Source of the DNA: a virus
DNA: 35,642 bases
IMG/VR virus record: IMGVR_UViG_3300032738_000331
Span: 1-35,642 of that record
Strand: one strand, 5' to 3'
Both the position numbers and the translations under genes were made by a program. Positions within the stretch are counted from its first letter, which is position 1. Each line of letters begins with the position of its first letter. The notes beneath the pieces are model-generated. The model made no database searches. It was not told the DNA's origin and saw only the letters and a program-made list of their open reading frames with translations. Positions 1 to 35,076 of the stretch are shown here, in pieces.

Positions 1-898
1 AAGGTACGCAAAAAACTCTACCGTCTGGAAGCAGCACTCCGCCATTAAAAGCATTACTACCAGGATAGGTTCCTGTTGGAGTTATAAGTGTGTCAGTTAC
101 TGGGTCGTAGATACGAGCTGAAGTTGAATCGTGAGGTACGCAAAAAACTCTACCGTCTGGAAGCAGCACTCCGCCATTAAAAGCACTACTACCAGGATAG
201 GTTCCTGTTGGAATGGTAAGTGTGTCAGTTGCTGGGTCGTAGATAAGAGCTGAAGTTGAAGCGTGAGGTACGCAAAATACACGACCATCGGGTAATAAAA
301 CACCACCAATAAAAGCATCACCACCAGGATAGGTTCCTGTTGGAGTGGTAAGTGTGTCTGTCTGTGATCCATAATTAACCGCACGAACATTTTCAAAGTA
401 GCTGTAAGGTGTTGGGGGAAACCAGTAGTCTAATGAATATCCAAATTGCACTGAATATGCAGCAATGCAATCATTATCTGATGTACCATAAAAAGTTATA
501 GATAATACAGCGGATTTACTTGATGAGATAGATGATGGTTTGTCACCGATGAATACCCATCCAGCCGGAAATGTTAAATTACGATTAGTGCCATCACAGA
601 TTAATCGTAATGACACCATACGCCCAATAGCACGATTTGAAGATGTAAATGTGAGATTACCAGTTAGGCTGATTGTTCTGTATTTTTGGTCTAAAGTGAG
701 CATATCTAAATTAATTGATGCTGAATATGTAATAGTATCAAATGATATAACTTCTTGTTTTGCAGTCCAAGATAACCCACTACCCGTGCTAGTTAATACA
801 CTACCAGCAGTTCCTACAGTTGATCCCGCTAAGATTGTAACTGGTAGAAATTGACGAGAATCGTCAATTACGGTATTACCCGAAATCTTTATTGCCAT
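1..898 (-). CDS. Tail fibre-like protein with kelch-like tandem repeats (C-terminus beyond window)
   Basis: The reading frame starts at the ATG at 896-898 (MAIKISGNTVIDD) and stays open to base 1, so 299 residues are visible and the C-terminus is missing. Residues 1-160 resemble the tip or attachment domain of other phage fibres (GRMVSLRLICDGTNRNLTFP). From about residue 167 the protein becomes tandem 44-residue units of the type GGVLLPDGRVFCVPH...IYDPATDTLT, which look like kelch or galactose-oxidase beta-propeller blades. Two full units and the start of a third are visible. A perfect late promoter lies 30 bases upstream, inside the end of the preceding gene. A surface adhesin or receptor-binding role is inferred from the fibre-gene neighbours and the blade-like repeats. 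Confidence 0.7.
   Translation of the reverse strand, partial: MAIKISGNTVIDDSRQFLPVTILAGSTVGTAGSVLTSTGSGLSWTAKQEVISFDTITYSASINLDMLTLDQKYRTISLTGNLTFTSSNRAIGRMVSLRLICDGTNRNLTFPAGWVFIGDKPSSISSSKSAVLSITFYGTSDNDCIAAYSVQFGYSLDYWFPPTPYSYFENVRAVNYGSQTDTLTTPTGTYPGGDAFIGGVLLPDGRVFCVPHASTSALIYDPATDTLTIPTGTYPGSSAFNGGVLLPDGRVFCVPHDSTSARIYDPVTDTLITPTGTYPGSNAFNGGVLLPDGRVFCVP
3..398 (-). repeat. 132-bp in-frame tandem repeats encoding kelch-like blades
   Basis: Units begin at about 3, 135 and 267, exactly 132 bases (44 codons) apart. Units 3-134 and 135-266 differ at only about 7 of 132 positions. The unit from 267 encodes a similar protein stretch but has diverged with synonymous changes and loses the repeat at its far end. 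The array continues past base 1. Confidence 0.9.
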
Positions 899-918: not shown

Positions 919-2235
919 TTACTTATTATTTATATTATTATTTAATTCCTTAATGGCCTCTATTAAGATTCCAATTATTGCAATATAATTTACTGATTTT
1001 ATACCTTCATCACTCTCATGAACCAATTCTGGTAATATTTCTTCAATTTCCTGAGCAATTACGCCGTATGATTTGGTACTAGTTGCATTCCACTCAAATC
1101 CAACACCATGCAATTTAGATATTAGTTCTAACGGTGATTCAATTTCAGAGATATTTGTCTTTAAGTTTATATCTGAAGTAGAATTAAAATCTGTTGCAGT
1201 TATTACTGTTGCAGTAAAACTACCATTAGCATCTCTAGCAACAATTGTATCGCCAGCCACATTTGATGATGTTGCAGCAGCAGAAACTGTTACTGGTGTT
1301 GATCCATTATATGACCCAACAGTTAAATAACTACCAAAGGTCAAAGTAGATAATGTACTCCCAAGACCAACTCCAGATATTGTACTATTTTGTAATTTTG
1401 AGTTTTGTATGGTGGAATTAACAATATCAGAATTTTGAATCGAACTTGATAATGATAATTTAGAATATGCAATAGATGCTCCAATGGCCACATGATCATT
1501 CACAATTCCTAAATCAACAATCATATCAGATGTAATCACATTTGGAGAACCAGTGACTACAATAGTACCAGATATGTTAGGAACAGTAATTACTCTAGTT
1601 GTACTTGTTGATATACCAGAAGCATCAAATCTAAATTTTTTAGTATCATTATTATTGTCAAAAAATAATGTTGTAGATGCCTCAAGAGATTTATTTAGAA
1701 TTATATCTGATGTATCTGTACCAACAATATCACCAGATAATGGCGCAGGCTTACCACCCAAATACTGTGAATTTAACTTATTAACTTGTGTTGTTGATGA
1801 TACTATTAGTGGTGCATCACCAGTAGTTATAGTTGAAATAAACTGATTTGATTGTATATTATCTGTTACGGTTAAGAACCCAGTAATTTTAGTTCCACCT
1901 ACAACTTCAAATTTACTTGAAATTACTGAGGTTCCAACACCAACATTACCATTTAATCTATATACATCAGAACCAGCACTAGACCACCTATCTACAGTTG
2001 GATCAAATAATTCACCAACACCATCAAGATAAAATGAAGTTGCAGTAACAACCCCAGATGCAAATACATCACCATCTAGTATGGTATCACCAATAACATG
2101 TAATTTTGATTCTGGATTTGTAGTTCCAATTCCAATATTTGGTGAAATTGATGTTGTTATTGATATATTACCTGAACTATTATCAACTAATAAGAATGAA
2201 CCAAATTGTGATAATTCTCTACTTCTTTCTGTCAT
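919..2235 (-). CDS. Tail fibre protein with C-terminal S74 self-cleaving chaperone domain
   Basis: This 438-residue fibre begins MTERSRELSQFG and has a GIGTTNPESKLHVIG collagen-free fibre repeat near the N-terminus, followed by beta-rich low-complexity segments (residues about 60-350). The last 85 residues form a peptidase S74 intramolecular chaperone: SDINLK at 354-359, then GFEWN, YGVIAQEIEEILPELV and a helical tail. In the endosialidase family the protein cuts itself just before the serine of S-D-x-x-x-K, using that serine and the lysine five residues on. Both residues are present (S354, K359), so release of an 85-residue chaperone after trimerisation is expected. It lies 12 bases after the 163-residue fibre gene, and its last codons contain the late promoter of the next gene. 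Confidence 0.88.
   Translation of the reverse strand: MTERSRELSQFGSFLLVDNSSGNISITTSISPNIGIGTTNPESKLHVIGDTILDGDVFASGVVTATSFYLDGVGELFDPTVDRWSSAGSDVYRLNGNVGVGTSVISSKFEVVGGTKITGFLTVTDNIQSNQFISTITTGDAPLIVSSTTQVNKLNSQYLGGKPAPLSGDIVGTDTSDIILNKSLEASTTLFFDNNNDTKKFRFDASGISTSTTRVITVPNISGTIVVTGSPNVITSDMIVDLGIVNDHVAIGASIAYSKLSLSSSIQNSDIVNSTIQNSKLQNSTISGVGLGSTLSTLTFGSYLTVGSYNGSTPVTVSAAATSSNVAGDTIVARDANGSFTATVITATDFNSTSDINLKTNISEIESPLELISKLHGVGFEWNATSTKSYGVIAQEIEEILPELVHESDEGIKSVNYIAIIGILIEAIKELNNNINNK
927..934 (-). promoter_or_regulatory. T4-type late promoter TATAAATA before the kelch fibre gene
   Basis: A perfect TATAAATA on the minus strand lies about 30 bases before the ATG at 898. It overlaps the last codons (Asn-Ile-Asn) of the S74 fibre gene. 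T4 late promoters need only this -10 element, read by gp55 sigma with the gp33 coactivator. Chance matches occur in DNA this AT-rich; the position just ahead of a start is what supports the call. Confidence 0.6.
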
Positions 2236-2247
2236 TGGATTTACCTA

Positions 2248-2739
2248 CTAAAATATTGGATTATAAACAACAAATTCAATAGTTTCACCACCAAAAGTAG
2301 GATCATTTAAATATACATTAGACCCAGTTGTTGCAGAAAATTCAGTTGGTGCAAGTCTAATACCATTAACATATGTATCAACCAACCCAATAGTATATGA
2401 AACAGAAAATGCAGTAAAGCCAATTCCAGCCGTATATACAGTTGATGTTCTTGGGGATAAATTAGGTGTTGCCCAGGTTTGTCCATACCCAGTTTTTACT
2501 ATAAGTTGATTTGAAACACCAATGGAACCTCCTATAGATATATCTCCATCAACACGCAAATCATTTGTGGTTAATCCTATTGATACATTAGACGTTTGTG
2601 TTCTTATAGTACCATAGACATCTAATGTATCAATAGGATTAGTTGTTCCTATTCCAACTTTACCTGAATTATTATTAGCAAAAATTAAATTAGTATTAAC
2701 TTCTATGCCATTTTTTACAACAAAATTCTTATCAGCCAT
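2248..2739 (-). CDS. Short fibre/virion structural protein
   Basis: The 163-residue protein starts MADKNFVVKNGIEV and carries a VGIGTTNPIDTLDVYG repeat at about residues 28-43, the same fibre motif as the next gene downstream. A second half (AFSVSYTIGLVDTYVNGIRLAP...) looks like a small beta domain often seen at the ends of cyanophage fibres. The start is supported by a strong ribosome-binding site (GAGGGGAAA) about 12 bases upstream. It is expected to be a virion protein; the exact location on the particle cannot be told from sequence. It sits between the vWA protein gene and the S74 fibre gene, all on one strand. Confidence 0.65.
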   Translation of the reverse strand: MADKNFVVKNGIEVNTNLIFANNNSGKVGIGTTNPIDTLDVYGTIRTQTSNVSIGLTTNDLRVDGDISIGGSIGVSNQLIVKTGYGQTWATPNLSPRTSTVYTAGIGFTAFSVSYTIGLVDTYVNGIRLAPTEFSATTGSNVYLNDPTFGGETIEFVVYNPIF

Positions 2740-3789: not shown

Positions 3790-6700
3790 TTATGAATACT
3801 TAGCAAATACTCCAAGCACTTTCCAAGTAGAACTTATTCTTAAGAACGTGAACCCCATAAAATATGTTCCTGCTGTAGTTCCACTTGGACTAATACCATT
3901 AAGCCATTTAATTGATACCGTTGAACCATTAATTTGAAATGTTGATGGTAGTGTAGTTGTTGAAGTTGTCTCCATAATTAAAGTATAATTCAGTGCTTTA
4001 TTATTTCCAGTAGAAACACTTGTAATATTTAATGATGATACAGTATTATTTGAAATATACCTTATTGGGCCATCTGCAAAACTCACAGATAAGCTACCAC
4101 CACCGAAAGAAGAATTATTAATGACATCAGAAATTTGATAGAATGTACTAATGCCAATACACTGATCCCCAGCCTTATTAAGTGGTGTATATCCCAATCT
4201 AGAGCTAATGTCCTCGTAGTACCCCCCAGTTTGACCTACACCGGCTGTGTTTACCAATTTACTTACCGATGCATCTACAATGCCACCACCACCCCTTACA
4301 GGGATTGTATTGGGGGTATTAGCTAAGTCAGCACCATAACCATCTAGATAATCAGAATTAAGATTATCAACCTTAATAGATGAAGCAACACTAATTGGGG
4401 ATAGTGTTGTTGTTGTGGAAATTAATCTAGAACCACTACTAGTTCCATATATCGTTAATGCACCATCACTTACCAATCTAGCAATTTCAGTTGTTCCACC
4501 ATACCACTTGAATGCATAAGCCCCATCATTTTTAGGTACAGAGAACCACAATGAATCATTTATACCTATACCAGAAGCAAAATCAACGTTTGTTGAATCT
4601 AAGCTGTCATAATAAACAACTCTAGTTCCAGAACTTCTTGTTGTGAATGTTGGTATATTTTTTCCTAGGGTATTTGTGAAGTTTAATACATCTAATGGGT
4701 TTTCAACAAATATTGTAGTGAACCCACTAACTGAATCAAAAGAACTATATACATTTAATTCAAATCCATTGGGTGAACCAGAGAATTTCAATGATGAAGC
4801 ATTACCAGTGTAATTGGTGGTAGTATTCGTCCCAGTATAAATTCCAACGGTATTTAATGGATCCCCACTAAATCTAACTGTCGTAATTCTAGAATTCTCA
4901 TCATACTGGGTAATAACTGTTATTCCCACACCAACAAAATCTATTTGAGTTGAGAAACCAACAGTACCTGAATTAGAACTAACCCCAACACCAAATAGGT
5001 TATTGTTAATCCACCCAAAAGATCTCCACTCATTATCTGTAGTATAAATCCACCCAACATTTGAGTTATCTACTGGTAATGAATTAAATGAAATATCACC
5101 ATAAGTTCCAGACAAATTAGGAATAGTACTAGAGACTGTAAATTCTCTAGATACATTTTCTTCACCATTAATATATAATTTTTTAACTTCCACCCCATTA
5201 TCTGAAGTTGAAGTTAATTTATTATTAATTAAAATCGGTCCATTAAATGTAGATAATAAATCTTTGTTCTCCCCACCATCAACCTGTATTGTTCTATTGA
5301 TATAACTTTCATCAGTTTTTATAAGATTAAATCCAAGTCCACCTGAATCATTGTTTTTATGCTGCTCACCAAGTACAGTTAGAAGTGGTGAGTCATATAA
5401 CTCCTCCTCACCTGATGATAATTTTATTTTCTTATTACCATTATAATAATGACCAGTACTGCTTTTTGCAGTGTAGTCAACTATTCCACCATTAAATTTA
5501 CTTGACTGTGCCAATATAACTTCAGAACCACTCAACTCTCTGGTTTGCCTTTCTGGGAACGCAGATGAATAATTACCAGGACCAAATCCCACATAAGCAA
5601 ATGTATGACCAGATGCACTAATAATAGAGTTTCTTCTTAATTCAGTTGGTAATATTTTAATCTTATTCACTAAAGAATTAGAACTATGTGTCTGCCTCTT
5701 AGATCCAAATAGTGATCTATAAACATTAACAGTATTACCACTTACTGTCGTTTTAATTCTAAAGATCTCATCATTTATTTGAAGATAATCACCAATTTGG
5801 AATCCATTTAATACTGCATTTGATATGACTAATTGATCTGAGATTGATACATCAGTTAATTCTGCTAGTATTACTGTTCCTATTCCAGCATAATTATATG
5901 ATAATCTACCAGATATATTTTCATCATTTAGGGAAATGTTTCCGTTATTTGATTCATAACCATTTTTATAGCAATAAATTACACCACCAGTACTTAAACC
6001 TACACCACCAGCACCATAATTGACAGTAATAGATGTTTGATCAGGAACATTTTCAATATATACTTTTTGATTGAAGTATTCTGATTCAACTCCACCGATA
6101 ATAATTGAATTATCTGTATATAAACCATGACTAGTATTAAATCCAACTGTTGCTATTCCACTTATAGAATCATATACGAACGATGTGGCTAAAAGTGATT
6201 TCCCAGTTAAGTATAATACTGATTTTTCTAATGTAGTTATTCCAACAGAACCAGAAGAATTTGTAATTGTCGATGCAGAAGATACAATTATCTTATGTGG
6301 GTCAACAATACTTGTTATTCTATAATGGGTATTATATGATGAATAATCATTAGAAACATTTGATATTTCTAATGTATCATTAATATTATTTTGTATTCCA
6401 TCAACTCTTAATGTGGCTGGGACAAATCCAGTAGTTGTTCCTATTCCAGCAGCCGGAATCGCACTGATAGTATTTCCAATACCATATGCACTTCCCCTTG
6501 CCATAATCTGAATTGATGTTACTGATCCACCAGCACCAACCTCAATTCTAGCACTACCATATAATCCTGTAGTAGAACCAGCATATCCAACAAGATCTAC
6601 ACCAAAATAAGTCCCCTGAATATAATTTGAACCACCACTAATAATACTTAATCGTGATATACCATTATATCCATGATCAACTTCGGTATAAATTGTATGA

Positions 6701-10133: not shown

Positions 10134-10859
10134 TCATCCATTTTTTATGTCATAATGATATCCAGAAATTGAATATTCTAAATTATTTCCTGGGTAATCA
10201 TTGGGGGTTTCGCCTTCATATTCTGGAATTAATTTTTCACCATCATTCCTCTGAGCCACAACAAAATAATTTATCTTAGTGTATTCATTTTTATTACTCC
10301 ATGATAAGTGGGATATTGGTAAACCTTTAATATAAAATCCATTGGATTCAAGAGAATAAGTTAGAACTAATGGGACCATAGTGCAGCTCAAATGCACCGT
10401 TAATGTATTAGAATCTACAAAGTTATTCCAATAATCTGGGAACCTAACAAAAACATGAACTTTATCACGATATAGTTTAACACATCCCCTAAAATATACA
10501 CCATTCTCTGGACCCTCTAAACAAGTATGTCTAAGTCTCCAGTTTTGTTTCGCTGGGTGTGATATATCAAAATTCTTTTTAGATGATAATACATGACCAC
10601 CACCATTAGATGTTATTTCACCAGTGGCATTAACACCAGTGGCATTAACATTCTCCAGAGCCAATAAATTACCAACCTTCATATTATAATAATACCAAGG
10701 CTCACACCTAGGTTTTAAATCCAAATCAACATCATCAAGAATATCTTCTTTATGATGCTTTGGAACAAAATCAAATCTTGTTGATGGTACTCCACTAATT
10801 ACTGGATCAGCGCAATCAATTTCACCAAATAGACCCTCTTCTAATATACTTTCACTCAT
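10134..10859 (-). CDS. Fibre-type virion protein, paralogue of its upstream neighbour
   Basis: The ATG at 10857-10859 (MSESILEEGLFG) overlaps the previous gene's TGA as ATGA, so I prefer it to the slightly longer frame; this gives 241 residues. The first third is unique. The central motif KKNFDISHPAKQNWRLRH followed by TCLEGPENGVYFRG is shared almost word for word with the next upstream gene. The C-terminal beta-rich part ends GEKLIPEYEGETPNDYPGNN, again parallel to the neighbour. This module occurs in tail-fibre or appendage proteins of several phages. The exact structural role is not known to me. Translational coupling to its paralogue suggests they are made in similar amounts. Confidence 0.65.
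   Translation of the reverse strand: MSESILEEGLFGEIDCADPVISGVPSTRFDFVPKHHKEDILDDVDLDLKPRCEPWYYYNMKVGNLLALENVNATGVNATGEITSNGGGHVLSSKKNFDISHPAKQNWRLRHTCLEGPENGVYFRGCVKLYRDKVHVFVRFPDYWNNFVDSNTLTVHLSCTMVPLVLTYSLESNGFYIKGLPISHLSWSNKNEYTKINYFVVAQRNDGEKLIPEYEGETPNDYPGNNLEYSISGYHYDIKNG
10486..10577 (-). repeat. Copy 1 of a ~92-bp near-identical segment shared by two adjacent genes
   Basis: Bases 10486-10550 are identical to 11199-11263, and the match continues to about 10577 with only two mismatches (10551 and 10562). Flanking regions of the two genes are much less alike. Confidence 0.9.
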
Positions 10860-11677
10860 AATTTCCACCCCGATTCATTTCTTTTATCATAATCCCACCC
10901 AACAACTGAGTATTGCCTATTATCACCAGGATAATCATTTGGTGAATTTCCCCCATACTCTGGAATTAATTTTTCACCATCGATTCTCTCAGCAAATATT
11001 TGATAATCAAATTTCATGGTTGTTATTTTTTTATCCGATGAATATACTGTAATTTTGTGCCCATCTAATTTATAATAAAGACTTTGTGGCACATCAAATG
11101 GTGTTAATGTAACTGTGATATTATCTATATCAACAAAACCAACCCAATAACTAGGTAAGTCTATATCAACACTAAATCTACCGTATTCTTTAACCTTACC
11201 CCTAAAATATACACCATTCTCTGGACCCTCTAAACAAGTATGTCTAAGTCTCCAGTTTTGTTTTGCTGGGTGTGGTATATCAAAATTCTTCTTTAATGAT
11301 AGTAAATGTTGTCCCCCATTAAATCTTGATATAACTTCACCCTGTGCTAAAACGTGCCTACCAGTTGCAATCGTTTTATTGACTGATAGGTTATCAAATA
11401 TAGCAGCATCCCCAACAACTGATAGTGAATATGGTGAAAAATTCAATCCACAAACAGAACCTGGAATAATAGGTACTGGTGAATCAGTATTAAGAACTGG
11501 ACCAATCATTACCCCAGCAGAAATACTAGGGAATAATGATGTGCTACCAAAGATTGATGGCGATTCAATATAAGAAGAACCCCTAATTGTTTTTGGCCCT
11601 AATCCCAATGATACCGGATAGTTTTGCCCAACAACTAATTGGTGTGATATTGAAGCAGTATCTAATTGAAATGACAT
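10856..11677 (-). CDS. Fibre-type virion protein, paralogue of its downstream neighbour
   Basis: The 273-residue protein (MSFQLDTASISHQLVV) has a Gly/Ser-rich beta N-terminal half, then the shared module KKNFDIPHPAKQNWRLRH and LEGPENGVYFRG at about residues 133-165, then a beta-rich C-terminus with GEKLIPEYGGNSPNDYPGDN. Compared with the downstream gene, the N-terminal half is different while the module and end are common, suggesting duplication followed by replacement of the attachment half. It lies two bases from the beta-helix protein gene. It is probably a minor fibre or baseplate decoration protein. Confidence 0.65.
   Translation of the reverse strand: MSFQLDTASISHQLVVGQNYPVSLGLGPKTIRGSSYIESPSIFGSTSLFPSISAGVMIGPVLNTDSPVPIIPGSVCGLNFSPYSLSVVGDAAIFDNLSVNKTIATGRHVLAQGEVISRFNGGQHLLSLKKNFDIPHPAKQNWRLRHTCLEGPENGVYFRGKVKEYGRFSVDIDLPSYWVGFVDIDNITVTLTPFDVPQSLYYKLDGHKITVYSSDKKITTMKFDYQIFAERIDGEKLIPEYGGNSPNDYPGDNRQYSVVGWDYDKRNESGWKL
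11199..11290 (-). repeat. Copy 2 of the ~92-bp near-identical segment
   Basis: Partner of 10486-10577, offset by 713 bases. It encodes the ENGVYFRG and RLRHTCLEGP region of the upstream paralogue. Confidence 0.9.
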
Positions 11678-27665: not shown

Positions 27666-28310
27666 CTAGTTCTGTTGTATTTTTTTTAATGAATCACTTA
27701 TTTTTTTCCTAGTTTCTTCTGAGAGTGTTTTTCCTTTTCTAAATTCACTCATTTTCTTTCTAGTTTCTTCTGAATGTTTTTTACCATAAAATGGATTATT
27801 TTCACCACTTAAAGATTCACTTATTTTTCTCTTAGATTCTTCTGTGTGTTTTCTACTTTTTCCATAATTTGGATTATTTTTACCTTTAGTGGCTTCACTC
27901 ATTTTTTTTCTATGTTCTTCTGAATGTTTTTTACCATAAAAATGATGTTTTTCACCACTTTTAGATTCACTCATTCTCTTTTTAGTTTCTTCTGAGAAAA
28001 TTCTTTCTTTTAGTTTCTTTTTTGTTTCTTCTGAATGAATATACCCAGAACACCAATCACCACCATCAGTACGATTCTGTAGAATCCCAGTTCGCAAATC
28101 TTTTCTACCTAGAACTGAGATCATGTATATCTCATGTTTAAAGGCTTCTTCTTCAGTTAGATTTTGTTTTAGAAATAATATTCTATCTTTATCTTTAGGT
28201 GGTAATACTCTGTGACGATGAATACAATAAGCTCTACTACCTTTACCCTTACCAATATAATAAGGAGTTCCGTCTTCTCTTAAGTAAGCATAGGTATAAT
28301 AGTTATTCAT
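27666..28310 (-). CDS. GIY-YIG homing endonuclease with NUMOD3 repeats
   Basis: 214 residues. The GIY-YIG nuclease core is at 4-90: [34 protein letters not shown], a [15 protein letters not shown] helix and GGDW. Residues about 90-212 are DNA-binding repeats of the NUMOD3 type, [49 protein letters not shown], and so on. Free-standing endonucleases of this kind spread by cutting a nearby target in related phages. The ATG overlaps the gp59 stop (ATGA) and the gene ends just before the gp32 promoter. The nearby target may be gene 32 or 59; T4 SegG beside gene 32 is a parallel. Confidence 0.88.
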
Positions 28311-29247: not shown

Positions 29248-29905
29248 GTCGGAATTGATTCAATTGTTTCTTAAATTTTTTGATGTATTTCATATCAAAT
29301 TTTTCTATGAATACTTCAACTTCCATATCACGAGAAACCATCATAATAACAATTTGTTTAACTTTAACTCCCGTCAATTCATAGATCATGCAAGAATATA
29401 TTGCACATTGAATAAAATAAGATTCAATCCATTCCTTACGTTTAATTTGGTCACTGGTTTTAGTATCAATAATAGATAGCTCACCATCAAACTCAGCTAT
29501 AATATCTGGAGTTCCCGCAACACCTAATATTTTACTATAAAGCTGCTGCTCTATGCATCGTATATTATTTATACGATGCAATGTTGGCTTTAATTTATTA
29601 AAAAACATTTTCAATAATGGTCTAGAGAAATCAACTTCTTTATTCTGAAGATAATTCTCAACAATACTATGAAAAGCCGTACCATTGGTTGATGTTCTGT
29701 TCATTTTATTATCAGCAGCTCTATCCCCGACTCTATTTCTCCATTTTTGAATTGATTCCTTTTTAGCATGTGATAATACAGATGTCACAGAAACCATTGG
29801 TTTTGTTTTTGTGTCACCAACAATAATATAATGTCTAACTCCATTAATTTCTATTCTCTCTAATTTTGGGAACTCAATATCAAAACCCTTATAATCATAT
29901 TTCAT
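29225..29905 (-). CDS. RecB-like PD-(D/E)xK exonuclease
   Basis: 226 residues. After an N-terminal beta section (MKYDYKGFDIEFPKLERIEI, VSVTSVLSHAKKES) come the RecB/Cas4/MGME-type nuclease motifs: GTAFHSIVENYL (His), VAGTPDIIAEFDG (Asp), LSIIDTKTSDQIK (DxK) and FIQCAIYSCMIYE (Q-x3-Y). Such phage exonucleases take part in recombination or DNA degradation. The start overlaps the PhoH stop (ATGA), so they are co-translated. The coding region includes a perfect 11-bp inverted repeat and the -35 box of the gp33 promoter. Confidence 0.75.
   Translation of the reverse strand: MKYDYKGFDIEFPKLERIEINGVRHYIIVGDTKTKPMVSVTSVLSHAKKESIQKWRNRVGDRAADNKMNRTSTNGTAFHSIVENYLQNKEVDFSRPLLKMFFNKLKPTLHRINNIRCIEQQLYSKILGVAGTPDIIAEFDGELSIIDTKTSDQIKRKEWIESYFIQCAIYSCMIYELTGVKVKQIVIMMVSRDMEVEVFIEKFDMKYIKKFKKQLNQFRLDNQLQV
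29554..29580. repeat. Perfect 11-bp inverted repeat within the exonuclease gene
   Basis: TGCATCGTATA (29554-29564), a five-base TTATT spacer, then TATACGATGCA (29570-29580). It encodes His-Arg-Ile-Asn-Asn-Ile-Arg-Cys. There is no T tract, so it is not a typical terminator. Confidence 0.85.
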
Positions 29906-31890
29906 CTTATACCTAAATTATACTTAGCAATAATATATTGCTTCACAAAATCTGAGCGAACAATATCATCAATACCAAACTCAATCACATCAAATGAATT
30001 CATTTGATTAATAATTCTCATAAAATCAATAATTCCATTTTTCTCAGATAACTTGGTTAAGTCAGATTGTGCCGCATCACCACAAAAACATATCTTACAG
30101 TCTTCACCAACTCTTGTAATAATTGAATCATTCTCATGAAATGATAGATTCTCAAATTCATCAACAATGATAATTGCCCGATCAAAAGTAGTTCCCCTAA
30201 TAAATGAAGTACTCCAAAAACTAATAGTTCCTTGCAATTTTAAATTTGAATAAATTGTCTCGTATTGTTCAGCATTATCAAAATCAAACATACCCTTAAC
30301 CATATTTTTATATGGTATTTCATACAATGCCGATTTATCGTCATGAGAGTTGTGAGTAACTATGTAGTCATCAGTAATATAAAGATTTTCAGAATTATCA
30401 ACACTAATACATTTAACCTCCTTAACCCCGATTGGCTCAATAGACTTTATTCCAATATTGTGCATATATTTACATGAAAATCTTTCAGCCTTTCTAGAAA
30501 TAAAGAATGGATTAATATCATTTGGTAAACTTATTGTAAATTCATAAGATATTAATCTGCATGTTAATTTCTGTCGTTTTCCTTGTCTATCAGTAATATA
30601 TGAAATCATACCAACCCTATCCCTCTCACATAATACAGATCTACCACCAAGAGATTTAACTATTTCAATTACATCCATTGCCAATCTCTTTGATGTTGTG
30701 GTATATGAAGCCTCCCCAATCTTCTTTACTGTACCATCAGTATCCATTAACCCCCGTAATAATTCAATTCTATCATGAATTGATGAAAATTTATATAAAT
30801 CTGGGATAAATTTTGTATCACATTTTGATTTATTTAACCCAAGTTTAATCAACTCATTTTTTATTATATTTTCTGATAATATTTTTGTTGGAATAAATTC
30901 ATATTTTAAATTATCGACAACTTTATTATTTTCACAATAATATTTTAATGTTGATCTCTTTTTATTTAATGATTCTAAAGCAACACCAATTGAATGATAC
31001 TTTTCACTCTCGGAAGTATCAAGATTTGTAACTAAAACTCTTTTGGCTGGTTTATTATTTTTAGGCGAATTATTTATAGTGTAAGTAATATTACGATTAT
31101 TATTTGTTAAATAACACCCCATTGATGTAATTTCATCATCTACTCTCTCAATTAACTCATTATCAGTATTTGAGAATGAAATAGAAGATGATATACTACC
31201 GTCACCTAAAATTACACCAAGTGTATATGGTGGGATAGGTAAATTATTTTTTGTAAACTCAATCGCTGCATTTCTAGGAAGATAATGATTTATTTTACCA
31301 CTATTGTTTAATAAAGTTTCAATAATTTGTTTGGTTGTTTTTGTTGACCCAGGTTTACCTCTCTTTTTTTCTTCATACGTTCTCGTCACCCATAAATGAT
31401 CTTCACAACATTCAGTGGATGTATTTTCCGTAGTTGTAACTTTATATACTAATTTCTTTCCCTTTGGGAATACCTTTGTTACTTTCGTTTGTTTACCATC
31501 ACAACCAATAACATAATCGCCAACTTTAATTTCACCCATAGTAGACCAGCCAGTTGGAGTTAGTATTTTAGCATCTAATGGCTGTGGTCCTGGAAGGAAA
31601 CCAATCTCCCTAGTTGGAACTAAAGAACGCACAATATAGATTTTATCATAAGGTGTTCTATAATCAAGAACATCTCTTAAAGCATTATATAAAACACACA
31701 TCGTCTTACCAGTTCCCGCAACACCATGTGCAATTATGTGTTTTCCTTCTTTGTATGATTCAAATAATCTTCTTTGATTCACGGTAAGTGGTTCAATAAC
31801 TGATAACTTTGAAATATCTATTGGTTTTTTAGTCCTCCTACCATTAGAAAATTCATTAGTATTTGTATTTCTTGCTTTTCTTGCTGGCAT
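29902..31890 (-). CDS. phoH: PhoH-like ATPase interrupted by an intein
   Basis: The 662-residue precursor is a 249-residue PhoH (residues 1-101 and 515-662) with a 413-residue intein. PhoH motifs: NQRRLFESYKEGKHIIAHG, Walker A GVAGTGKT (56-63), and, after the intein, the Walker B strand AIIIVDEFENL and CFCGDAAQSDL. Joining FLPG to SHDDKSALYEIPYKNM restores the usual cyanophage PhoH sequence, and the spliced length is normal. PhoH is a P-loop ATPase of uncertain role, common in marine phages. The gene is coupled to the exonuclease (ATGA overlap) and lies 11 bases from a free-standing HNH endonuclease gene. Confidence 0.9.
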   Translation of the reverse strand: MPARKARNTNTNEFSNGRRTKKPIDISKLSVIEPLTVNQRRLFESYKEGKHIIAHGVAGTGKTMCVLYNALRDVLDYRTPYDKIYIVRSLVPTREIGFLPGPQPLDAKILTPTGWSTMGEIKVGDYVIGCDGKQTKVTKVFPKGKKLVYKVTTTENTSTECCEDHLWVTRTYEEKKRGKPGSTKTTKQIIETLLNNSGKINHYLPRNAAIEFTKNNLPIPPYTLGVILGDGSISSSISFSNTDNELIERVDDEITSMGCYLTNNNRNITYTINNSPKNNKPAKRVLVTNLDTSESEKYHSIGVALESLNKKRSTLKYYCENNKVVDNLKYEFIPTKILSENIIKNELIKLGLNKSKCDTKFIPDLYKFSSIHDRIELLRGLMDTDGTVKKIGEASYTTTSKRLAMDVIEIVKSLGGRSVLCERDRVGMISYITDRQGKRQKLTCRLISYEFTISLPNDINPFFISRKAERFSCKYMHNIGIKSIEPIGVKEVKCISVDNSENLYITDDYIVTHNSHDDKSALYEIPYKNMVKGMFDFDNAEQYETIYSNLKLQGTISFWSTSFIRGTTFDRAIIIVDEFENLSFHENDSIITRVGEDCKICFCGDAAQSDLTKLSEKNGIIDFMRIINQMNSFDVIEFGIDDIVRSDFVKQYIIAKYNLGIR
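30349..31587 (-). mobile_element. PhoH intein, class 3-type, with LAGLIDADG endonuclease
   Basis: The 413-residue intein begins PQPLDAKILTPTGW (Pro1, not Cys or Ser) and ends YIVTHN before Ser+1. Class 3 inteins lack an N-terminal nucleophile and show a separated W-C-T set: Trp two residues after the block B His, Cys in block F, Thr before the final His-Asn. All are present: H64/W66 (CEDHLW), C393 (VKCISVD), T411-H412-N413. The insert holds a two-motif LAGLIDADG endonuclease: TLGVILGDGSISS and LLRGLMDTDGTVKK. Confidence 0.83.
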
Positions 31891-32554: not shown

Positions 32555-33337
32555 CTATTTAACAAGTTTCCAACCTCTATATGTTTTCCTCTTCTCATTA
32601 ATTAACCTACTAACACCATTTGGTAATAAGTTATTATTATTTGCAAATAAAGATAACTCACCAATAATAACATAATAATATTCCCCATTAGGAGATAATA
32701 AACAATATTTATTACCAGAACCTGGACTATTCCAATCACTTACCGGCTTTAAATTTTTAATTTTACTGGGATTTGTTAAAGTCCACCCCTTATGTTTATA
32801 TTGTTTATATGATCTAAGTGAATATAAACAATATAAACTTAAATTATTATCTATTGAAAATTGTTTAATATTTGTACCAGAATAGATAATACCATCTGGG
32901 GAGGTGAAGGAATATTGGCTCACATGTAGTGGTGGCTTTATCCAAAGATTTTTATTCCGTTTAGACAGTCGTAATTTTGCCTCATTGCTCATTCCAGGCC
33001 CAAGTATCCTACCCCTAAGAGATTTACTAATCTTAATTTTACTTTCTTTTGTATGTCCTGTAAATATTGGAGGTGAATCACCACCATCAGTAAGGTTTCT
33101 AAGTATTCCAGTTCCTAAATCTTTTCTACCTAAAACATCAATCATGTATTTCTCATGTTTAAATGCTTCCTCTTCAGTTAGGTTTTGCTTTAGGAATAGT
33201 ATTCTATTTTTATCTTTAGGAACCGGAAGACGACGATTTGAATTGAATGCTCTATCATTAGACCCCTTACCGATATAATAAGGAGTTCTGTCTTCCCGCA
33301 AATACGCATAAGTATAAAATCTGTTAGGATTTACCAT
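32555..33337 (-). CDS. GIY-YIG homing endonuclease with different C-terminal DNA-binding repeats
   Basis: 260 residues. Residues 6-90 ([60 protein letters not shown]) closely match the first 90 residues of the GIY-YIG enzyme between gp59 and gp32. The rest differs: a short NUMOD3-like helix (HTKESKIKISKSLRGR) and two copies of a 48-residue module of the type YSFTSPDGIIYSGT...NNLS...YKHKGWTL and YCLLSPNGEYYYVI...NNLL...YRGWKLVK. The target is probably in thyX next door or its intein-free relatives. The ribosome site is AAGAGCAG. Confidence 0.85.
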   Translation of the reverse strand: MVNPNRFYTYAYLREDRTPYYIGKGSNDRAFNSNRRLPVPKDKNRILFLKQNLTEEEAFKHEKYMIDVLGRKDLGTGILRNLTDGGDSPPIFTGHTKESKIKISKSLRGRILGPGMSNEAKLRLSKRNKNLWIKPPLHVSQYSFTSPDGIIYSGTNIKQFSIDNNLSLYCLYSLRSYKQYKHKGWTLTNPSKIKNLKPVSDWNSPGSGNKYCLLSPNGEYYYVIIGELSLFANNNNLLPNGVSRLINEKRKTYRGWKLVK

Positions 33338-33366: not shown

Positions 33367-35076
33367 TTAGGGGGATAATTTCGCCTTGTGCAATCTTTTT
33401 TCTTCATAATATTCACATACATTGGGTGCCCAAGATTTAAGTTTTGGCCACAACATTTCACATAATGCCTGAATTTCTAATTGTGCATCACGCTTAGCTC
33501 TTAGGTCCATGAAATGGAGAGCAGATCTCAAATTCATAGTAACAACAAAATTCTGTCTTATACCCTGTGGTAATAGATCACGAATATGTTCCTCATTATA
33601 CCCCTGTAATCTCCTTCTGTCATACTTCTGACAGGCTAATAGTATATCTGCTAAATCTTCTTGAATGTCTTCTTCTGTGTATGTATAACGATCTCCCTGA
33701 CGATCAATATAAAAGCCAGGGGGTCTTAGATAGAATACATCTTCTATTGGAATGAGGCCATTTGCAACCTTCTGAACTCTCCTGCCGGTGTATCGTTGAG
33801 ATTGACAATTGTGAACAACAATACCATCACATACAAAATTATGATATTTAGAATCAACCTCTATATCATATGTTACATCAGTTCTTAGATATTCAATAGA
33901 AACAATTTTTCTAAAATGAGTTCTTAAACTTTTATGTTCTTTAACATGGCAAGATGAACAAAGAATTTCATAATTGTCTAAATTATATGATTCTTTAATA
34001 TTGTCTTTTACTGGAATTATGTGATGACAATGCAGATTTTCAGTTGTTCCACAATTATTACAAACTCTACCATGATGATCTAATATCTTAGATTTTGAAT
34101 ATTTTTGCCAATTATAAACTCTATTTTCAGTAAAATCATCATATTTTCTCGACGGGTGATTTTCTTTATTTTTTAAATGCGCAAGTTTTATGTTATTAAT
34201 TCCATTCAATCTTCGTCTATTAATTTGTTCTTCTGTAAAATGAGAAGTATCTAATTTTTTACCAGTATTATGATCTCTTCGATATTCCCAAGTAATACCA
34301 AACAGATATGCATATTTCTTAATTACTTCATAAGAACACCCCAATTCAGATGCTATGGTTTTAGGTGACTTTTCTTTTAGTTGTTCAGATAACCAAATTG
34401 GATTACTATACCACTCTCTAGCACCTCTTACACTTAATTTAACACCCCTTAAACTTACATTAACACCATTACATGCAACATTATCACCAATATTCAATTC
34501 CTTTAATCTCATCCAACCATTATCTGTAAAAATTCTATGATCCATAGAACATTTTAACTGTTTGCCATCATCTAAAGTAACTTGATATAAATCCTTTTCT
34601 GAATTTTTAAAAACTTTACCAATTTTTGAATATTCAAAATACCCTCGATCCTCATTTAATGATTTAATTAATGGTAATTCTTCATTGGAAGAGTATTTTT
34701 CATATAAATCTTTAATGGTTAGCTTTTTCTTCTTTTTATACTTTACATCTATTAAACTCTCTTCAGCAAGACAATCAAAACTCATCAATCTATGAGTCCT
34801 AGCCTGAACCATAACACTATGAACAAACCCAACACAATTAAAAGTTATACTTGGATGTTCTAAAGGCCCAAAATGCCCCCTATCATTAGCTAGAAGACTC
34901 TCTACAATCCACTTACCATGATCTTTAGGTACTGGTTTATCATATATTGCATCTTCTGAATAATCATTTTTCGCGGCTTGCCAAATAACCTGTTCTGCTA
35001 ATGGATAACATTGTAATACTTCAACTTTTAAATTCTTATCAAGACTCACTAAATCTTGTGCGCTTACTGGTTTCAT
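33367..35076 (-). CDS. thyX: Flavin-dependent thymidylate synthase ThyX interrupted by an intein
   Basis: The 569-residue precursor equals a 247-residue ThyX plus a 322-residue intein. ThyX makes dTMP from dUMP with FAD and methylene-tetrahydrofolate. Evidence: FGPLEHPSITFNCVGFV, QARTHRLMSFD joined after splicing to CQSQRYTGRR, reconstituting the RHRxxS...SxRY signature, then EDIQEDLADILLACQ, LLPQGIRQNFVVTMNLRSAL and FMDLRAKRDAQLEIQAL (substrate-binding Arg and Asn side chains conserved). The spliced length is normal. The gene lies between a GIY-YIG endonuclease and a small Cys-rich gene. Confidence 0.92.
   Translation of the reverse strand: MKPVSAQDLVSLDKNLKVEVLQCYPLAEQVIWQAAKNDYSEDAIYDKPVPKDHGKWIVESLLANDRGHFGPLEHPSITFNCVGFVHSVMVQARTHRLMSFDCLAEESLIDVKYKKKKKLTIKDLYEKYSSNEELPLIKSLNEDRGYFEYSKIGKVFKNSEKDLYQVTLDDGKQLKCSMDHRIFTDNGWMRLKELNIGDNVACNGVNVSLRGVKLSVRGAREWYSNPIWLSEQLKEKSPKTIASELGCSYEVIKKYAYLFGITWEYRRDHNTGKKLDTSHFTEEQINRRRLNGINNIKLAHLKNKENHPSRKYDDFTENRVYNWQKYSKSKILDHHGRVCNNCGTTENLHCHHIIPVKDNIKESYNLDNYEILCSSCHVKEHKSLRTHFRKIVSIEYLRTDVTYDIEVDSKYHNFVCDGIVVHNCQSQRYTGRRVQKVANGLIPIEDVFYLRPPGFYIDRQGDRYTYTEEDIQEDLADILLACQKYDRRRLQGYNEEHIRDLLPQGIRQNFVVTMNLRSALHFMDLRAKRDAQLEIQALCEMLWPKLKSWAPNVCEYYEEKRLHKAKLSP
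33808..34773 (-). mobile_element. ThyX intein, class 1, with HNH endonuclease
   Basis: The 322-residue intein runs from Cys1 (CLAEESLIDVKY) to GIVVHN, then Cys+1. Block B is LKCSMDHRIFT. The endonuclease is HNH: VCNNCGTTENLHCHHIIP, then ILCSSCHVKEHKSL. A helix-turn-helix-like segment (PKTIASELGCSYEVIKKY) precedes it. It interrupts the catalytic signature of ThyX between Asp101 and the Cys after splicing. Confidence 0.88.

Follow-up and report, generated by a model that had tools for sequence, protein, structure and literature searches.

In Podospora anserina, the WD40 repeats of HET-D, HET-E and HET-R (HNWD) are under concerted evolution, with positive selection at two positions of the d-a loop and at two more of the b-c turn; between 2 and 15 repeats are present (Table 2 of PMC1805685). 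Short-read assemblies of WD40 arrays of this type are described as unreliable (PMC12222747). In phages, beta-propellers are involved in receptor binding, or have been proposed for it, in phiKZ (gp131C, seven blades), phi11 (Gp45, five blades), and PRD1 (P2) (PMC4901313). A kelch protein, CBB_552, is located in the virion of phage CBB (PMC5259590), and another is unique to cyanophage P-HM2 (PMC3037559). New propellers, those of Kelch families included, are continually amplified from one blade, and viruses are represented among them (PMC9218822; the topic is also treated in PMC6805158). The same survey of repetitive propellers reports diverse blade numbers and doubts about assemblies, and its main text does not mention phages (PMC9218822). 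In long-read marine viral data Kelch repeats were nine times higher, and repeats were blamed for fragmented assemblies (PMC9238414).

The array described here is located at one end of a virus record of 35,642 bases, which was analysed as a whole (the window) and stems from a T4-like phage. With a probability of about 0.7, it forms the beginning of a seven-bladed kelch-like propeller, C-terminal and made of a single chain, which serves as receptor-binding head of a tail fibre, with recombination between the blades and diversification of one face. Like the HNWD repeats, the phage blades are near-identical and diversified on the same face in the same two loops (PMC1805685, PMC2873952, PMC12222747). 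Unlike them, the phage units are kelch-like and not WD40, and they are found on fibre-type proteins, whereas the HNWD proteins are fungal STAND/NLR (NACHT) proteins. Repeat number differs as well, being 2 to 15 in the fungal repeats and nearly always seven in the phage arrays (PMC1805685). The phage arrays show the HNWD mode of evolution, concerted blades with diversified d-a and b-c loops, but they are not members of the HNWD type of sensor. Compared by description, phiKZ gp131C also has seven blades and a proposed role in receptor binding; the passages cited on phiKZ gp131C, phi11 and PRD1 P2 contain no mention of near-identical blades or blade-wise diversification, and the phi11 propeller, unlike the array here, is located mid-protein and in a trimer (PMC4901313). 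CBB_552 and the kelch protein of P-HM2 are likewise kelch-type propellers of tailed phages (PMC5259590, PMC3037559). In BFVD, phage proteins named as kelch, including one from phage CBB, are distant in fold (TMq about 0.5-0.6, 12-17% identity). A preliminary description of the locus had called a propeller at a phage tip unusual, which holds, but phi11, PRD1 P2, and phiKZ gp131C provide earlier cases (PMC4901313). In the open-licence literature, no paper was found on a kelch propeller as phage receptor-binding protein, and none on diversifying selection in the blades of a phage propeller; among the matches listed for phage tail fiber repeat units none contained the term 'concerted evolution'. 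Judged by these papers, propellers as well as kelch virion proteins have precedents in phages, and the homogenised, face-diversified seven-blade pattern is apparently undescribed there.

The gp32-like protein of the window matches 2,399 phage records; the best among the matches listed are from marine viruses, Synechococcus and Prochlorococcus phages, at about 42-43% identity. Comparison of the copies and Tandem Repeats Finder confirmed the direct 132-nt repeats noted before (2-133, 134-265, and 266-397), the program ranking positions 2-358 (period 132, 2.7 copies, score 560) first among the tandem arrays of the window. In the register used originally, identity is 95% between the first and second repeat and 68% for the third, and positions 362-397 fall outside the repeat. 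The difference of 7 in 132 bases between the first two copies was also found as described, and all six affected codons replace an amino acid. The coding strand is the minus strand, on which a single ORF, open at the end of the record, runs from 898 to 2 (Table 1), and what appeared as the third copy encodes the gene's first blade. Its changes had been considered mostly silent; relative to the next blade nine silent and seven replacement codon changes are present, and the silent ones are all contained in one patch. This patch, which was picked after viewing the data (Fisher p 1.4e-7 in a register shifted by one codon), appears to be a mosaic, gene-conversion-like mark. The 44-residue units follow the pattern D-TLTTP-TGTYPG-xxAFx-GGVLLPDGRVFCVP-xxSTSARIYDPxT. 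Since the record begins inside the array, three units are a floor and not a count; the break at the very first base fits the fragmentation of assemblies by repeats (PMC9238414). Two exact 20-base searches of viral_contigs for the missing end of the array gave no match. Residues 1-39 of the N-terminal part recur in three relatives (L020-L022) at 51% identity, and tblastn with the N-terminal part gave no match at E 1e-3 in 50,697 phage records.

Table 1. Features of the array gene and its neighbours in the window
Feature	Position	Strand	Remarks
Fibre ORF	2..898	-	At least 299 codons, open at the first base of the record; N-terminal part, linker, kelch-like blades
N-terminal part, presumed anchor/stalk	398..898	-	167 residues
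Linker YWFPPTPYSYFENVRAVNYG before first blade	371..430	-	Similar linker ahead of the array in L014 and at the end of contig L019
Blade unit 1, 44 codons	227..358	-	Unit HMM and codon comparison
Patch of silent changes, codons 18-27 of unit 1	278..307	-	9 of 9 silent differences from unit 2 in 10 codons
Blade unit 2, 44 codons	95..226	-	Unit HMM and codon comparison
Blade unit 3, stopped by the end of the record at 31 codons	2..94	-	Unit HMM and codon comparison
Neighbouring fibre gene, C-terminus Peptidase_S74 (chaperone of endosialidase)	919..2235	-	Pfam 7.3e-14; PHROG tail/baseplate families
Small fibre/baseplate-like gene, same cluster	2248..2739	-	phrog_8215, 5.9e-9

For the array domain of one relative, L006 (seven units, ten sequences), AlphaFold2 predicted a closed seven-bladed propeller with a pLDDT of 87.3 and a pTM of 0.87, in which the four strands of each unit occupy unit positions 2-4, 16-21, 27-31, and 38-41. 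By prediction, both four-stranded blades and a closed ring are present, as expected for a beta-propeller, and the array of the window would probably form such a ring of seven, too. The best PDB alignment of the model was obtained with virginiamycin B lyase (Z 30.4, rmsd 2.5, 295 residues aligned), followed by kelch-type galactose oxidases (Z 26.7); these enzymes have seven blades each. Neither phiKZ gp131C nor phi11 Gp45 is among the top structural matches listed. Sequence profiles matched the kelch-type design SAKe6AE (7.6e-12) and galactose oxidases (1.3e-9). Both the propeller and the kelch-like nature of its blades had been suggested in the preliminary description and are upheld by these results. 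A canonical kelch motif carries a double glycine after the second strand, but the corresponding site here is V-P ('RVFCVP'). Pfam Kelch_1 gave a match of E 0.0045 in one out of ten domains, and P0001 gave no match to it at E 1. Therefore, the blades are named kelch-like and are not filed as Kelch. Pfam matches to DUF4651, RCC1_2, and Rap1a were rejected as sums of weak repeats without any single stretch passing, and so was phrog_38732 for P0001. The best viral fold match in BFVD was a collagen-repeat protein of the giant virus Hokovirus HKV1 (A0A1V0SG21, TMq 0.89, 27% identity).

With a lyase and galactose oxidases among the top structural matches, and galactose oxidases also detected by profile, the propeller could be a glycan-cleaving or oxidising enzyme, or else a structural spacer, instead of a receptor-binding head. 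This seems unlikely, since the strong amino-acid diversification in every blade described below is not predicted by a single active site. A search of viral_contigs with P0001 yielded 21 loci; with an alignment of ten domains as query, 130 matches were confirmed, and the best 80 of these, from 75 loci, were kept. Three matches, of which that in an Afipia MAG is close, were obtained when 84,980 bacterial and archaeal genomes were scanned. Among the 50,697 phage records, matches were restricted to two Cylindrospermopsis phages and one Vibrio phage, and all of the matching genes are annotated 'hypothetical protein'. The same blade type is joined to very different N-terminal parts in different relatives, and the start of the propeller ORF and the stop upstream of it are often no more than a few bases apart. 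In many tailed phages the related arrays adjoin tail genes. Beside its array, L026 encodes baseplate wedge and tail proteins, L063 the central tail fibre J, L081 collagen-like tail fibres, and L052 a minor-tail-like protein. The PHROG search gave no matches for some neighbours of array genes (L037 and one neighbour in L098). Together with the S74 fibre gene next to the ORF of the window, these genes agree with the fibre setting claimed originally. The binding role also claimed is supported; it would probably consist in binding of a receptor, perhaps a glycan, by a propeller placed at the fibre tip.

Several further features of the relatives may be mentioned. Eleven contigs (L013, L018, L031, L033, L034, L065, L066, L076, L080, L087, and L097) carry two or three propeller genes, several of them adjacent. 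A short C-terminal tail past the last blade, ending like LSxYxNKL, is kept across unlike phages (L002-L014 and others); it is poorly predicted by AlphaFold2 and might serve in docking of the head or in ring closure. The isolated Vibrio phage 2E1 (L101) has a distant relative (27% identity) at 4845-6629, directly after the tape measure gene and followed by a gene annotated as hemagglutinin.

Blades were counted with an HMM of the unit, by which 111 arrays with at least three hits were detected; arrays with fewer hits and 25 of the 111 as duplicates were left out. Eight of the resulting 86 distinct arrays are open-ended and were omitted (L086, L051, L060, L017, L011, the second arrays of L033 and L065, and that of the window), and 78 are complete at both ends. 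Seven units are present in 73 of these 78, a number that is biased towards sevens by the use of seven-unit queries and the restriction to the best 80 of 130 confirmed matches, and that contains some sister arrays counted separately. In 72 arrays the count was obtained by the HMM and in one, the third array of L018, by eye, where an HMM count of six was discarded because reading of the sequence gave seven. The exceptions are L014 with eight units, L052, L061, and L065 with six, and L081 with five. When the arrays were grouped by mean DNA identity between units, seven units were found in 8/12 arrays at 0.85 or above, in 18/19 between 0.75 and 0.85, in 25/25 between 0.60 and 0.75, and in 22/22 below 0.60 (L018 third array by eye). 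With a cut at 0.83, picked post hoc, the association of departures with unit identity gave a Fisher p of 0.0006. Departures in count occur only in arrays with still-similar blades, and it is exactly there that real recombination or assembly error should be easiest. Most arrays come from metagenome contigs, and blades can be collapsed or scrambled when such contigs are assembled from short reads; even some of the sevens might be affected. L051, open at its 5' end, has one unit that is absent from the otherwise near-identical L052, which means that these close relatives either truly differ by one unit or seem to do so because an assembly collapsed. For L065, with six units and a longest exact repeat of 43 nt, the deviating number is hard to attribute to assembly.

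From the similarity of its units the array had originally been judged to be still growing, with blade number itself as the variable that alters receptor binding. The near-identical adjacent units of the window, the five complete arrays deviating from seven, and the additional unit of L051 would be in line with this. It is nevertheless rather improbable in view of the 73 seven-unit arrays, among them all arrays below 0.83 mean unit identity (L018 third by eye), and of two isolates, CrV-01T and Cr-LKS4, with different blades and seven in both. Moreover, AlphaFold2 still closed a ring of seven from the eight units of L014: the last seven form the ring, and residues 1-82 have a pLDDT below 50, the first unit being without structure, although the alignment consisted mostly of seven-unit arrays and may bias towards this result. 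The claim of growth was accordingly given up, and of the claim of variable number only the occasional departures (5, 6, 6, 6, and 8 units) are left. An identical count in all related genomes, which the preliminary description had named as evidence against such variation, was nearly, but not fully, observed. Blade number is nearly always seven, yet not absolutely fixed.

Homogenisation of blades at a conserved count is better supported than a steadily growing array. The cyanophage isolates CrV-01T from the Netherlands and Cr-LKS4 from Israel are 99.3% (600 nt) and 98.6% (72 nt) identical in the regions flanking the array, and the seven blades of each differ between the phages and are alike within. 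Excluding gaps, unit identity is 94.6% within the array of CrV-01T, 96.8% within that of Cr-LKS4, and 94.1% between the two, the margin for CrV-01T being small (94.6 versus 94.1). In the B-C loop region the two phages differ in every blade, and the region is one codon shorter in LKS4. Pairs of cold sites (outside the variable positions defined below) showing all four gametes are common in older arrays (L002, 67/168; L035, 56/119) and absent in the youngest ones (L014, 0/1; L026, 0/10). The isolate pair, the silent patch, and the four-gamete pairs therefore make recombination between blades likely, though as an overall process and not step by step.

Replacement and silent changes were compared in arrays whose blades resemble one another; at each position of the unit, additional amino acids were scored as N and additional silent codons as S. 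Sister arrays (L051, L058, L059, L060, L005, and L034) and units not exactly 44 codons long were excluded from the counts in 16 and 12 arrays. In 16 young arrays, five hot positions, 13, 14, 17, 32, and 33, accounted for N 140 and S 14, the other 39 positions for N 104 and S 195; the Fisher value of 6.5e-33 is a contrast and not a probability, as blades are non-independent. The hot positions were first spotted in L014 and L052, which are themselves among the 16 arrays, and in leave-one-out analyses over all 16 the identical five positions were chosen every time. For nearest blade pairs (27 pairs in 12 arrays) N:S was 47:4 at hot positions versus 30:37 elsewhere, and for the orthologous arrays L002 and L057 18:2 versus 27:81 (p 5e-8). 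Near-identical strains (L057-L060) showed mixed changes, with four cold N and no hot one in comparisons with L060. Units 1 and 2 of the window differ by four N at hot positions, three N elsewhere, and nine silent changes, none of which is hot. Across 283 units positions 17, 14, and 32 vary most, with A/V/I/F, G/N/S/A, and F/Y/H, respectively, as leading residues. Placed on the predicted model by its DSSP topology, loops D-A (5-15) and B-C (32-37) should share one face, and position 17 should start the innermost strand; in the opposite hairpin (22-26), N is 6 and S is 34.

The hot positions might be merely unconstrained, and the similarity of blades a product of assembly; the arrays are on metagenome contigs, the window breaks inside its array, and short-read assemblies of similar WD40 arrays are unreliable (PMC12222747). 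Drift, however, predicts about 76% replacements at the hot codons, and 91% were seen (140/154; binomial p 1.8e-6, with blades non-independent), and the same features are present in the two isolate genomes, so that this explanation is quite improbable. Selection that diversifies five residues per blade on one face, with the count conserved, is better supported than growth; this combination is absent from the preliminary description. Targeted hypermutation of the hot positions, for example by a diversity-generating retroelement, is very improbable: two or three bases are often changed in hot codons (23/51 differing codons versus 8/67 elsewhere) and NNC codons occur at some hot positions (L014, L052), but reverse transcriptase PF00078 was detected in none of 25 records, that of the window included (some above 100 kb, others possibly fragments), with matches in 3 of 14 control genomes, which argues against a retroelement, and position 17 is mostly A, V, I, or F, whereas random change of an AAC template gives other residues.

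For the seven-bladed receptor-binding head, the following course of events is proposed. Each 132-bp unit would constitute one four-stranded blade. Recombination among near-identical blades would spread variants round the ring, resulting in concerted evolution, and would occasionally add or remove one blade, while ring closure would hold the count at seven. Selection would favour replacements at positions 13, 14, and 17, in the loop into the innermost strand and at its start, and at 32 and 33 in the B-C loop, all of which lie on one face as judged by topology. The outcome would be a multivalent binding face to which each blade often contributes F, Y, or H together with N and which could be rewritten quickly without a retroelement, and the fast change on this face probably tracks changing bacterial receptors. 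A more general view can be put forward only tentatively: many tailed phages may possess a retroelement-free diversity generator, in which a reservoir of seven blades is shuffled by recombination and its face rewritten by selection, as an independent counterpart of the HET-D/HET-E sensors, with the 11 contigs containing several propeller genes widening the repertoire. If so, phages could vary receptor contacts fast through repeats and recombination within one gene, and two unrelated blade types, kelch-like in phages and WD40 in fungi, would have come under pressure to vary in the same pair of loops. Short-read assembly would then easily lose blade counts and variants, and this class of host-recognition genes is probably under-recorded.

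Some other genes of the window deserve mention. Large in-frame inserts, which we take to resemble inteins, are present in a PhoH-like gene and a ThyX-like gene (29902-31890 and 33367-35076). The adjoining genes at 10134-10868 and 10856-11677 both match phrog_17490, a family of unknown function. Two ORFs, 27666-28310 and 32555-33337, are related to each other and GIY-YIG-like by eye, and the first of them contains a 72-bp tandem repeat at 27743-27995.
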